Part shown: in pieces, positions 9,630 to 52,190 of the stretch
Position numbering within the stretch: the stretch's first letter is position 1
Layout of the letters: each line of letters begins with the position of its first letter
Source: Pedobacter cryoconitis
GTDB taxonomy: Bacteria > Bacteroidota > Bacteroidia > Sphingobacteriales > Sphingobacteriaceae
Length of the DNA: 64,000 nucleotides
Direction of reading: 5' to 3'
Assembly (NCBI RefSeq): GCF_014200595.1
Contig: NZ_JACHCG010000001.1
Location: forward strand, 806,001-870,000
The notes under the pieces: generated by a model
What the model saw: the letters and a program-made list of their open reading frames with translations, nothing else
Database searches by the model: none
Told to the model about the DNA's origin: nothing
Program-made: the position numbers and the translations under genes

Positions 9630-10442
9630 TTAATTATCCCAATCCTGTTTATTAATTACTTTTAAATTATCCAGAACATTGATTGCGATACTAACACCGG
9701 CCTTCTTGAAATCTTCTTTTTTATCTTTCGTTTGAATACAGTTAGAAAAATAATAAACATTATTAGCTGTAGTAATGTAGCCCACATACCACGAAACATG
9801 AAGATTTCCCTGTTTGCCATTTCCAGTTTTAGCCCTGATCACATAGTCTTTTGTAGACTTGGCTATCATAATATCTTTAACGATATCCATGGAGCGCGCA
9901 GAAAACGGAAGTTTATTCTGATGCAGGTTCCGGAGAAAGTCTATCTGCTGAGCAGGAGTAATGCGTAATCCTCCCCATAACCAAAACCCATCTATCCCAC
10001 CACTAATATCACCATTACCATAATTTGCCTTTTTGAGCCAGAACTTCATTTTCTCTTCACCCACACGTTTAGCCAGTTCCTGATAGAACCAAACCGTTGA
10101 ATTCTTAAACGCGTTTCTCATATCTGTATCTGCATTCCAGGCAGGTACCGGCCGCTCTTTCTGATCCCATTTCGAAACAGTATGCTCATCTTTAACTGCG
10201 CCCGTTTCCAGGGCAATCAGCGAATTGCAAATCTTAAATGTTGAGGCAGGGGTAAAGGGTATATTCGTCTGTTCCTGATTGTAGTAAGTGTAACGGTCAT
10301 TTTTCTGATCATAAAGGATAAAAGAACCCTGTACCTGGTGTTCTTCGTAGAATTTCATAAGCTCTTCCCCAGCAGGATCGGATTGGAACGAAACCAATCC
10401 AACTGCTGCCAATAACAACAGGAGTGTTTTGTATTTGAACAT
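9630..10442 (-). CDS. Class D (OXA-type) beta-lactamase
   Basis: Periplasmic serine beta-lactamase of 270 residues that hydrolyses beta-lactams through an acyl-enzyme. The signal peptide is within residues 1-20. Class D motifs appear in order: STFK with the catalytic Ser and carboxylatable Lys (about residue 67), STV of the SxV motif (about 114), YGN (about 141), WLWGGLRIT in the place of the WxxGxLRI stretch, and KTG (about 207). The sequence is divergent and chromosomal, with no insertion sequence or integron nearby, so it looks intrinsic. It sits 11 bp behind dapB on the same strand and is likely cotranscribed with it. Spectrum cannot be predicted. Confidence 0.9.
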   Translation of the reverse strand: MFKYKTLLLLLAAVGLVSFQSDPAGEELMKFYEEHQVQGSFILYDQKNDRYTYYNQEQTNIPFTPASTFKICNSLIALETGAVKDEHTVSKWDQKERPVPAWNADTDMRNAFKNSTVWFYQELAKRVGEEKMKFWLKKANYGNGDISGGIDGFWLWGGLRITPAQQIDFLRNLHQNKLPFSARSMDIVKDIMIAKSTKDYVIRAKTGNGKQGNLHVSWYVGYITTANNVYYFSNCIQTKDKKEDFKKAGVSIAINVLDNLKVINKQDWDN

Positions 10443-15303: not shown

Positions 15304-15669
15304 CTATACCTCACCAGAAGATTCTTCCTTAAAGCTATCAGCTACTTTTTCCGTTAATCTGAAGAATCTTTCACGCCAGTAATCCCTGTCTTTTTCCATT
15401 TCTTCAAAAGTGGTAATTTCTTTAGTATGTGTTGGCCTGGTTACTTTCTCTTCAGGATATTCATTAGAAAAATCATGTCTAAGTGCCTCACCATATCTTG
15501 ATATTATTTTATACGGTAATTGAGGTTCCAGAATGTGGTTATAATAACTGGTTCTGTCATAACCCGCAGCCTTAGCTACGGCCTTTATGGTCATCCCGGA
15601 ATTCCGGACGATGGAGTCCAAAAGCTCACCTTTATGTTTCTTAATATCCTCTTTTTTCACTAAAAACAA
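15304..15669 (-). CDS. HTH DNA-binding regulator, 121 aa
   Basis: A small regulator with a helix-turn-helix near residues 18-52 (GELLDSIVRNSGM, then TIKAVAKAAGYDRTSYYNHI), a linker and a C-terminal charged helix (FEEMEKDRDYWRERFFRLTEKV) that could form a coiled-coil dimer. It resembles XRE/phage-Cro-like activators of transcription. Immediately upstream (15694-15784) lie four copies of ATTCTACA/TGTAGAAT, the most likely autoregulatory operators. The structured RNA region starts beyond them on the opposite strand. Confidence 0.65.
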   Translation of the reverse strand: MFLVKKEDIKKHKGELLDSIVRNSGMTIKAVAKAAGYDRTSYYNHILEPQLPYKIISRYGEALRHDFSNEYPEEKVTRPTHTKEITTFEEMEKDRDYWRERFFRLTEKVADSFKEESSGEV

Positions 15670-15693: not shown

Positions 15694-15784
15694 ATTCTAC
15701 ATTTTATTAGTATAATTCTACAATTATGTTGATATTAGTGTATATAATGTAGAATTGTAATTTTATTTGTAGAATTACTCTACA
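15694..15784. promoter_or_regulatory. Cluster of TGTAGAAT operator-like sites
   Basis: ATTCTACA occurs at 15694-15701 and 15715-15722, and its inverse TGTAGAAT at 15748-15755 and 15768-15775, with a half site TCTACA at 15779-15784. Starts within each pair are 21 and 20 bp apart, two helical turns. The array is symmetric, with two sites in each orientation. It lies between the HTH gene (minus) and the structured RNA (plus) and could control both. Confidence 0.6.
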
Positions 15785-15843: not shown

Positions 15844-15851
15844 TAATTTTG
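15844..15851 (+). promoter_or_regulatory. -7 box before the structured RNA
   Basis: TAATTTTG fits TAnnTTTG. The nearest TTG (15830) is only 11 bp upstream, shorter than usual, so the promoter is plausible but not strong. Predicted start is around 15856. Confidence 0.35.
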
Positions 15852-15855
15852 CAGT

Positions 15856-16200
15856 TCTTCAAATTGAAATGAAGGACTGCTTGACGAGCCTCGTAACAGA
15901 AATCTGGTAAATTTCAACAATACCCTACGAGATAAGTCAAGCAGCCTGAACCTATAAATATGGGGTCGGTTGCTTGCTTAAGTTTATTGTAGGGTATATT
16001 TTGCAAAAAATATATAGGTTTACCAGAACCTCTGTTACATTAAACGGGCAAGTAGCCGACCCTGTTCTTTTTCCAGATTTCGCCTATTTGCATCCGCAGC
16101 TCCGTATAAACACCAATTACCTTGATTAAGAAAATGGTATGTGCGGCCAGCGAAATTCTCCTGGTTCAACGCGTAAAAGCTGGTTGCCATACCTTTTCTA
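15856..16200 (+). ncRNA. Candidate highly structured noncoding RNA (~340 nt), possibly 6S-like
   Basis: This interval contains many long complementary pairs. A rod fold is made by GTAACAGA 15893-15900 with 16031-16038, TCTGGTAAA 15903-15911 with 16019-16027, ATACCCTAC 15920-15928 with 15989-15997, and 15934-15946 with 15968-15979. Competing helices are CTGCTTGAC 15877-15885 with 15936-15944, CTCGTA 15890-15895 with 15926-15931, AACCTATA 15949-15956 with 16013-16020, and a 17-bp helix of 15963-15979 with 16046-16062. The mismatches in the long helices are G-T on the plus strand, so they are wobble pairs only in a plus-strand RNA. A 15-bp hairpin with a T tail ends the region. The rod with an asymmetric inner loop recalls 6S RNA, but no family was assigned. 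Confidence 0.5.
16136..16197 (+). terminator. Hairpin with T tail at the end of the structured RNA
   Basis: GGTATG (16136-16141) plus GCGGCCAGC (16143-16151) pair with GCTGGTTGC (16179-16187) plus CATACC (16188-16193), one bulged T and two G-T wobbles. TTTT (16194-16197) follows and further T-rich sequence continues to 16210. The 27-nt loop is long for a terminator, so it may also be a structural domain of the RNA. Confidence 0.45.
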
Positions 16201-16224
16201 TTCTCTTTTATTCTTCATTAAAAC

Positions 16225-16956
16225 ATGCTTATGAATAATTATTCAGGATCTAAAACAGTGAAATGGGACATCCATCTGCCAGAGAAAGTTTTTCATATTA
16301 AAGGAACAGTCAGTGTTTCCAATGAACTTTCCATACCAGTTAAAACTACCAGGAGGTTATGGGTCAATCACCAGGAAGTATTTCCTCAAACCGCGACAGT
16401 ACTCCGCCCATTTTATGATTGTAGCTTTGAATGGGGCGAACTCGGACAGAACGCTTCTTATACCACAGCATTAGCAATTTGTCTGGCTATATTTAATAGC
16501 GAAAGGCTGGCCGAAAACCTGTTTATCTGTTTCAAAGAAGAGTTTGTTCAGAATTTTCCTGATGGCAGCTTTGAACTGGTTCTGGAAGTGACCAGGTTTT
16601 TAAATAAACATAACCAGAGGTTACATCCCAATCTGTACAGCCGGTTTTGTTTTTCCGCGATTACCAGTTCAAGAGAAATTCTTTTGTATAATGATCCCGA
16701 AACCGGGATAATCACAGCCGATCTTGCTGAAAATTATGCTATGCATAGAGAATATATGCCTGATGTGAAGCTGAGAAAACTCAATGAACGTAAACAAAGA
16801 CTGTTATTCAGGTTATTTGCGAAGGATGACTATATCGTGAGCGGGTATGAGTTTCCTGAGGTGATGCGCAGGGTAGAAGAAATGATGGCCAGATTTTACT
16901 GGAGATCCGTAGAGAAAATTATTACCAATAAGCTGGCAGAGCGTTATGAAAATTAA
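16225..16956 (+). CDS. DUF6166-like protein
   Basis: The protein has 243 residues. Residues 40-110 resemble the DUF6166 pattern: RRLWVNHQEVFPQ, then FEWGELGQNASYTTALAICLAIF and a helix ENLFICFKEEFVQNFP ending SFEL. The remaining half is helical and arginine-rich at the end (VMRRVEEMMARFYWRSVEKI) and was not recognised. No signal peptide. It starts 25 bp after the putative end of the structured RNA and could be expressed by read-through from it; its end nearly touches the convergent epimerase gene (1 bp apart). Confidence 0.5.
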   Translation: MLMNNYSGSKTVKWDIHLPEKVFHIKGTVSVSNELSIPVKTTRRLWVNHQEVFPQTATVLRPFYDCSFEWGELGQNASYTTALAICLAIFNSERLAENLFICFKEEFVQNFPDGSFELVLEVTRFLNKHNQRLHPNLYSRFCFSAITSSREILLYNDPETGIITADLAENYAMHREYMPDVKLRKLNERKQRLLFRLFAKDDYIVSGYEFPEVMRRVEEMMARFYWRSVEKIITNKLAERYEN

Positions 16957-51962: not shown

Positions 51963-51970
51963 TAACTTTG
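51963..51970 (+). promoter_or_regulatory. -7 promoter box of the B12-riboswitch transcript
   Basis: TAACTTTG fits TAnnTTTG and lies about 7-10 bases before the start of the riboswitch. No clear -33 element. Confidence 0.5.
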
Positions 51971-51976
51971 CGTCGC

Positions 51977-52140
51977 TTTTGGTTCCTGATCTTACCGATC
52001 AGGATTAAAAGGGAATATGGTGTAAATCCATAACTGTCCCGCAGCTGTAAGCTCCTTAACGGAATTCGTATCCAGCCACTCATGTTTAATATGGGGAAGG
52101 CATGAATCTCCGGGAGTAAGTCAGAAGACCTGCCTCTAGC
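51977..52140 (+). ncRNA. Cobalamin (adenosylcobalamin) riboswitch
   Basis: Aptamer elements in order: a 5' hairpin CCTGATC/GATCAGG (51985-52003), GGGAAT then GGTGTAAATCC (core), CGCAGCTGTAA (P5/L5 region), the P6-like hairpin around 52080-52110, and the B12 box AGTCAGAAGACCTGCC (52119-52134). Binding of adenosylcobalamin normally shuts off the downstream receptor. The 335 bp between the PPK2 stop and the receptor start is largely this element. Confidence 0.95.
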
Positions 52141-52190
52141 GTTATAATTTCATAGCTTTCGGGGATTGAAGCTAGGGGTGAGTGCTTTTT
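52133..52190 (+). promoter_or_regulatory. Switching expression platform of the riboswitch
   Basis: Two mutually exclusive hairpins share bases: CCTCTAGC (52133-52140) with GCTAGGGG (52171-52178), and TAGCTT (52153-52158) with AAGCTA (52169-52174). A T run (52186-52190) follows 8 nt after the first. Competition between them would gate termination or access to the receptor's ribosome site. Confidence 0.6.

Follow-up and report, generated by a model that had tools for sequence, protein, structure and literature searches.

A seemingly undescribed RNA with two mutually exclusive folds in Pedobacter cryoconitis and its relatives: a probable cis-acting leader switch

The RNA described here lies in a stretch of 64,000 nucleotides from Pedobacter cryoconitis (the window), between a small regulator-like gene on the minus strand and a gene for a 243-aa protein on the plus strand. 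The features of the locus, in window coordinates, are:

15304..15669, minus strand: ORF, divergent small regulator-like gene, 121 aa, HTH-like
15694..15775, both orientations: four TGTAGAAT sites, two per orientation, between the regulator gene and the promoter of the RNA
15844..15851, plus strand: TAATTTTG, a Bacteroidota-type -7 promoter box by its sequence
15858..16072, plus strand: conserved RNA, with a predicted 5' end and a model match at 15878-16072
15877..15895, plus strand: A5 (segment 1), the 5' strand of helix A, its end overlapping the start of Bext
15893..15911, plus strand: 5' strands of Bext and B, pairing 7/7 with 16032-16038 and 8/8 with 16019-16026; tree-aware covariation
about 15900-15902, plus strand: conserved AA of the internal loop, within the 5' strands of Bext and B
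15920..15928, plus strand: 5' strand of helix E, pairing 9/9 with 15989-15997
15926..15946, plus strand: A3 (segment 2), the 3' strand of A or, with 15968-15979, the 5' strand of the rod upper helix
15951..15964, plus strand: loop-proximal part of hairpin C, present in the MFE fold; the 3' strand of C continues into D5
15963..15979, plus strand: D5 (segment 3), the 3' strand of C and of the rod upper helix, or the 5' strand of D
16019..16038, plus strand: 3' strands of B and Bext, with the internal-loop CC at about 16029-16030
16046..16062, plus strand: D3 (segment 4), pairing 17/17 with D5
16063..16072, plus strand: U-rich tail TGTTCTTTTT, directly 3' of D3
16136..16197, plus strand: H2, a sub-lineage hairpin with a long loop and TTTT, directly before the gene, from fold comparison
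16225..16956, plus strand: ORF, downstream gene, 243 aa, DUF6166-containing (PF19663, 30.2 bits, cut-off 27)

No Pfam match over the cut-off was obtained for the 121-aa protein (HTH_31 reached 12.7 bits against 27). Four of the five TGTAGAAT sites of the 64-kb window cluster between its gene and the promoter of the RNA, as judged by eye; the total of five is not above chance (mean 3.2). The cluster is likely to be the operator of the divergent regulator. Among 83 divergent proteins encoded upstream of copies of the RNA, 27 matched HTH_26 and 23 matched HTH_3, both Cro/C1-type families that may overlap on one protein, and by eye such neighbours occurred mostly in the window genus and in the phylum sample. 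A divergent regulator of the Cro/C1 type, found beside many copies, probably also controls the promoter. Transcription would start a few bases 3' of TAATTTTG, and the 243-aa gene is likely to lie in the same transcript as the RNA. The 243-aa protein had 45 homologues, and those with an organism given were from Pedobacter. Elsewhere in the window, a cobalamin riboswitch was located at 51963-52151 (+, 115.9 bits), and an ORF with an STFK motif at 9630-10442 (-) encodes what we take from its sequence to be a class D beta-lactamase-type protein.

The plus strand of 15858-16207 folds at -111 kcal/mol, with a z of -7.3 against dinucleotide shuffles, and the minus strand reaches a z of -3.95; on either strand 0 of 100 shuffles folded as well. 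A preliminary description of this DNA had argued from G-T mismatches for a plus-strand RNA and for selection on its folding: the difference between the two strands agrees with the former, and the plus-strand fold together with the compensatory changes reported below supports the latter. Four of the pairings listed there were checked, as was the end hairpin. The 17-bp helix between D5 and D3 is exact, with four G-U pairs, and helix E is complete. The arms 15893-15911 and 16019-16038 pair as two helices flanking an internal loop; 15934-15946 pairs with 15968-15979 only with bulges, the straight register giving 7 of 12 pairs. Helix A, absent from that description, pairs 15877-15885 with 15936-15944 (9/9) and 15890-15895 with 15926-15931 (6/6), and both of its sides have changed among relatives. 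The T-tailed hairpin at the end is real (stem within 16136-16193, loop of about 27 nt, TTTT), but does not belong to the family-wide unit, and a simple scan for terminators, which allowed loops of 3-8 nt, did not call it. This hairpin, H2, folds in nine of the ten loci examined, the window included, the tenth sequence being incomplete at that end; both arms vary between loci, as seen by eye. A structured RNA thus lies within 15856-16200, as had been claimed, but the unit shared by the family covers only about 15858-16072.

Relatives of the RNA could be found well beyond the source genome. BLAST detected at least part of the region in 23 of the 145 genus genomes, the source genome counted, and a scan of genomes collected at species level with a single conserved pattern yielded at least 118 stretches; of 166 loci, 83 had both arms of helix B. 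From 84 segments, 62 distinct sequences were obtained, of which 57 were used in the search model R1 and five unusual ones were omitted. This covariance model includes B, Bext and part of C, and excludes A, D, G and the rod upper helix. In the window it matched 15878-16072 (G000:C1:821878-822072) with an E value of 2.7e-19, the window copy being one of the sequences from which it was built. Copies were detected in 85 of 144 genus genomes, with up to 8 per genome, and, under strict filters, in 43 of the 395 genomes searched across the phylum. Among genomes selected for already having a copy, all 17 from Bacteroidota held 1 to 12 each and the four from Fibrobacter held 12, 8, 12 and 14, while the eight genomes taken from other lineages, which had been chance matches to the pattern, gave no model match. 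Copies per genome thus ranged from 0 to 14. Carriers include Pedobacter, Mucilaginibacter, Sphingobacterium, Alistipes and Parabacteroides distasonis, the copy of the last scoring 99 bits. The set of 169 distinct copies includes one weak match, L105 (E 0.0038). Copies were divided by a regular expression into an S type and the rest, the B type, some counts separating the Fibrobacter loci. The 29 S-type sequences come from the window genus (19), other Sphingobacteria/Cytophaga-like bacteria (9) and Alistipes (1); the 133 of B type from Fibrobacter (48), Bacteroidales-type bacteria (35), the phylum sample (29), the window genus (19), one other and L088.

The source genome carries a second copy at L198 3559-3715 (G000:C1:2520558-2520714, E 2.3e-9). 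By eye, it is flanked by a divergent small gene and by a gene like those 3' of the RNA elsewhere in the genus, and an ORF near it is presumably integrase-like. Paired copies, close together and on the same strand, were observed in L178 (1126-1311 and 1810-2004, -), L300 (544-699 and 814-972, +) and L258 (643-807 and 2451-2614, +). One 43-bit match, L088 538-776, belongs to neither Bacteroidota nor Fibrobacterota by the label of its contig, Pseudoflavonifractor (Clostridia), and may reflect a binning error or else a transfer. Carriage as phage or plasmid cargo was rejected, since blastn at 1e-5 matched the window RNA to nothing in the phage or the plasmid collection. An Alistipes copy gave one partial match in each of the two at 0.01, and the covariance model matched the plasmid one in full. 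The 22 pattern matches on viral contigs look like chance; none of them passed the two-arm filter.

To assess the two folds, copies were aligned by MAFFT without structure, and stems were compared family-wise with null alignments simulated on the tree. In the B type (133 sequences), none of the 100 nulls reached hairpin C (columns 67-75/81-89), helix D (81-88/150-157) or helix B (30-36/117-123), and one reached the rod upper helix (55-60/98-103). Since C and D use one and the same strand, they exclude each other. In the S type (29 sequences), to which the window copy belongs, no stem passed the family-wise test, the best being reached by 18 of 150 nulls; single pairs with an E value below 0.01 were 23-159 and 26-156 of Bext and 99-173 of D. 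A further MAFFT alignment, A2 (33 sequences), gave C, A, the rod upper helix, B, G, D and A5-G3 as its seven longest well-paired stems, and both pairings of A3 were kept in it. The rod and the alternative fold pair 91.4% and 93.6% of its cells, which drops to 37-59% when the folds are slid out of register, and the covariation score and paired cells of either fold were reached by 0 of 500 shuffles; these stems were chosen on the very alignment tested, and the shuffles ignore relatedness. On two of five measures the rod was weaker, 18 and 12 of the 500 shuffles reaching it. Helix B is invariant in A2 because its sequences were picked by an exact pattern. RNAalifold returned D and three short pairs on alignment A1, and B, C and three short pairs on A2. 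Family-wide covariation on the mixed alignment A3, which combines clades, added little, as did a tree-aware test on a further alignment, called A5, whose fit had been guided by B, Bext and C.

Two folds that exclude each other are supported by covariation: one is a long rod, the other combines a hairpin at the 5' side with one at the 3' side. The preliminary description had proposed looking for compensatory changes in Pedobacter homologues; its mutually exclusive helices and 'switchable RNA' fit the family, both alternatives being conserved with such changes (C, D and B; the A2 folds). Among sequences in which both folds could be forced, the rod was lower in nearest-neighbour energy in 16 of 25 (from the 29) and 97 of 119 (from the 133), with medians of 3.3 and 8.1 kcal/mol. 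As the rod is more stable in most sequences, the alternative fold may be rare. In two Alistipes loci, L080 and L096, a 5' GAAAGTGT can, by eye, pair with the end of D3 and the U-run ACGCTTTC, extending the closure of the rod.

Within the rod, the internal loop between Bext and B is highly conserved. In 88 sequences not derived from the exact pattern, A28 was found in 100%, A29 in 95%, C125 in 99%, C126 in 100%, T40 in 100% and G113 in 98%; the sequence of helix B varied in the same 88 while the AA and CC of the loop stayed. T40 and G113 could extend B as a G-U pair, and if the RNA is recognised at one site, the AA/CC loop is the strongest candidate. A T-box-like pairing of UGGU with a tRNA end was rejected, as the sequence of helix B changes in non-pattern copies.

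The position of the copies points to a leader. Upstream of the RNA, 26 of the 34 S-type copies and 52 of the 87 in the B type have a TAnnTTTG box, against 2.6 and 5.1 in shuffled sequences, the quartile distance from box to model start being 24-28 nt in the S type. The Fibrobacter copies had no excess of this box (3/48 against 3.3 shuffled), which counts against a leader. The next ORF lies on the same strand in 151 of the 169 copies and on the opposite strand in 11, and none was found in the available flank of 7; ORFs of 50 aa or more were called mechanically. In 134 of the 169 an ORF starts within -20 to 300 nt of the model end (quartiles 44, 56 and 141 nt). Between RNA and start codon the box occurred in 0/29 S-type, 1/55 B-type and 1/30 Fibrobacter copies, the last figure carrying little weight since the box is a Bacteroidota consensus. 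In most copies the RNA thus precedes a same-strand gene, as a leader would, with next to no promoter box in between. In one annotated Parabacteroides distasonis record, the RNA is flanked by a helix-turn-helix gene and by a response-regulator gene that follows it at about 270 nt; all three share a strand.

A U-run, counted as 5 or more of 8 (background 14% at random window positions), follows D3 in 48/48 Fibrobacter, 34/36 Bacteroidales-type and 28/29 phylum-sample copies, in 8/10 other relatives of the window group and in 18/38 copies of the window genus; a rougher count with the groups cut otherwise gave 43/44, 54/58 and 10/31. A terminator-type hairpin with a U-run is thus one of the folds in most lineages; of the two exclusive conserved folds, only single pairs are significant in the S type. 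In the window, the tail TGTTCTTTTT after D3 is a possible attenuator terminator. About half of the window-genus copies lack the U-run, which counts against attenuation; there, control of translation at the start codon, or H2 in the window, may take its place. Of 95 regions separating the RNA from a start codon, 32 contain AGGCT, against 3.4 from shuffles. It complements AGCCT adjoining the 3' strand of B and by eye is often one arm of a hairpin ending at the start codon, most frequently in the window's group; the gap in the window itself showed no AGGCT by eye. Judged by energy alone, start-codon hairpins had mean z values of -1.4, -0.8 and -1.2.

The genes behind the RNA are diverse. The downstream set comprised 142 distinct proteins, of which 18 (partial, distant, duplicate-like or doubtful) were omitted before the scan. 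The remaining 124 included matches to sigma-70 region 2 (18), TonB plug (8), N6_Mtase (6), N6_N4_Mtase (6), Fib_succ_major (4) and DUF6166 (4), and one protein may match several families. ECF sigma factors, TonB receptors, DNA methylases and lipoproteins are thus represented, with no obvious common pathway. In a scan of the downstream genes for defence families, the 25 families listed were all methylases except one. By eye, DNA methylase-like first genes recurred 3' of the RNA in L037, L044, L263, L099, L291 and other Bacteroidales or Fibrobacter loci.

We read the RNA, with a probability of roughly 0.6, as a cis-acting leader switch of an attenuator- or riboswitch-like kind, which would toggle between two folds and so control expression of the gene that follows. 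Four segments would act by attenuator logic: 1 (A5), 2 (A3), 3 (D5 with G5) and 4 (G3 with D3). In state I, the rod, 1:4 and 2:3 would be paired, with B, C and the conserved AA/CC internal loop inside. In state II, 1:2 and 3:4 would be paired, and the 3:4 hairpin, formed by D and G directly before the U-run, would terminate transcription; the AGGC-box hairpin before the start codon may act on translation instead. A ligand or protein bound at the conserved loop might choose the state. Co-transcription with the gene, conditional termination and start-codon masking are all predictions from sequence.

A different account would make the RNA a free-standing small RNA acting in trans, ended by D (or by H2 in the window), with the adjacent gene a neighbour only. 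Its own promoter box, the terminator-like end with a U-run in most lineages and, in the window, H2 with TTTT would suit such an RNA, but a same-strand ORF stands behind 151/169 copies at a median of 56 nt, the -7 box is found in the gap in only 0/29 and 1/55, and several copies per genome each precede unrelated genes; we regard this account as unlikely. Of the 'switchable noncoding RNA' first proposed, the switching fits; a 5' leader of the adjacent gene is more likely than a free-standing RNA. A cis-acting RNA could also bind RNA polymerase or a NusG-type factor, so that downstream terminators are ignored, and not be a ligand switch at all. The put and EAR elements are RNAs that make polymerase ignore downstream terminators, and one conserved RNA with a highly conserved internal loop before diverse genes would be expected of such an element. 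However, two exclusive conserved folds and a terminal U-run of its own argue for a local decision, and we know of no requirement for either in put- or EAR-type elements, which leaves this explanation improbable.

Being multicopy and patchy, and having its second source-genome copy near an ORF that we take, by eye, for integrase-like, the RNA might be thought part of a mobile element, as a guide RNA, an intron or a retron-like RNA. Against this, the 25 commonest of 66 Pfam families among the 124 downstream proteins included no transposase or reverse transcriptase, the 25 commonest of 46 families among the 83 upstream proteins included only IS1595 (2) and resolvase (1), and no Rfam intron or ribozyme matched the RNA; a mobile origin seems very improbable. 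Group I and II introns, retrons and guide RNAs were rejected, as Rfam gave no match and the listed families of neighbouring proteins held no gene of these kinds. A 6S-like regulator of RNA polymerase, as the preliminary description had suggested, is scarcely credible. The rod with internal loops looks similar, and 6S-Flavo was not found in the source genome, so that its role would be open, but no 6S or 6S-Flavo model matched and genomes hold several copies or none. The inner strand said to mimic a -7 box, TATATTTTG, is not a strict TAnnTTTG, and a strict box lies inside the RNA in only 17 of the 169 copies.

Confirmation of the leader switch would mean that gut, rumen and soil bacteria carry multiple copies of a large and widely distributed structured leader that no Rfam 15 family matches, and that it links DNA methylases, ECF sigma factors and surface proteins, which have no known shared control. 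A wider proposal, which we put forward only tentatively, is that the family shared by Bacteroidota and Fibrobacterota is an ancient undescribed class of conformational leader whose members, as many as 14 in one genome, make up a global regulon, in which one common signal at the AA/CC loop would jointly set restriction-modification systems, ECF sigma factors, TonB receptors and surface lipoproteins. Since the carriers include strains of Pedobacter, Mucilaginibacter and Sphingobacterium as well as Parabacteroides distasonis, both switch and signal are directly testable.

Comparison with Rfam 15 (4227 families), the search suggested at the outset, gave no family on the RNA, 6S and 6S-Flavo included, either for the window at the gathering cut-off, for 14 genus loci at E <= 1, for 18 further loci at the gathering cut-off or in one more search at E <= 1. 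Matches off the RNA were to the cobalamin riboswitch, tRNAs, a group II intron domain and, below threshold, DUF805b; the intron domain (RF00029, 44.2 bits) lies at L018 297-392, about 1.1 kb from an RNA copy. The extracts of PMC2864571 describe the Bacteroidota motifs Pedo-repair (RF01715), Flavo-1 (RF01705), Bacteroidales-1 (RF01693) and Bacteroid-trp (RF01692). Compared by Rfam model only, none of these matched the RNA in the window or in the 14 genus loci. Several Bacteroidetes motifs, such as HMP_4078 and HMP2_4205, are named in the extracts of PMC8040213. No RNA in the extracts of PMC8040213, PMC9723704, PMC11109978 and PMC2864571, among the published sources, could be identified with that of the window, HMP_4078 and HMP2_4205 being compared by name only. 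The family, of about 200 nt, is seemingly undescribed.

Among known systems, 6S RNA and 6S-Flavo (RF00013, RF01685) share the long rod with internal loops, but the present RNA differs in having no model match, no conserved promoter-like box and a multicopy leader position. It resembles riboswitches in its conserved residues beside a covarying helix, its 5' position and its expression-platform-like ends; it matches no riboswitch class in Rfam, and the genes behind it give no single pathway, unlike most riboswitch regulons. With trp-type attenuators, in which segments 1:2 and 3:4 alternate with 2:3, it shares two mutually exclusive ways of pairing four segments and, in most lineages, a U-run directly after the 3:4 hairpin. 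It differs from these in that segment 1 also pairs with segment 4, giving a closed rod, and in that the downstream genes are unrelated.
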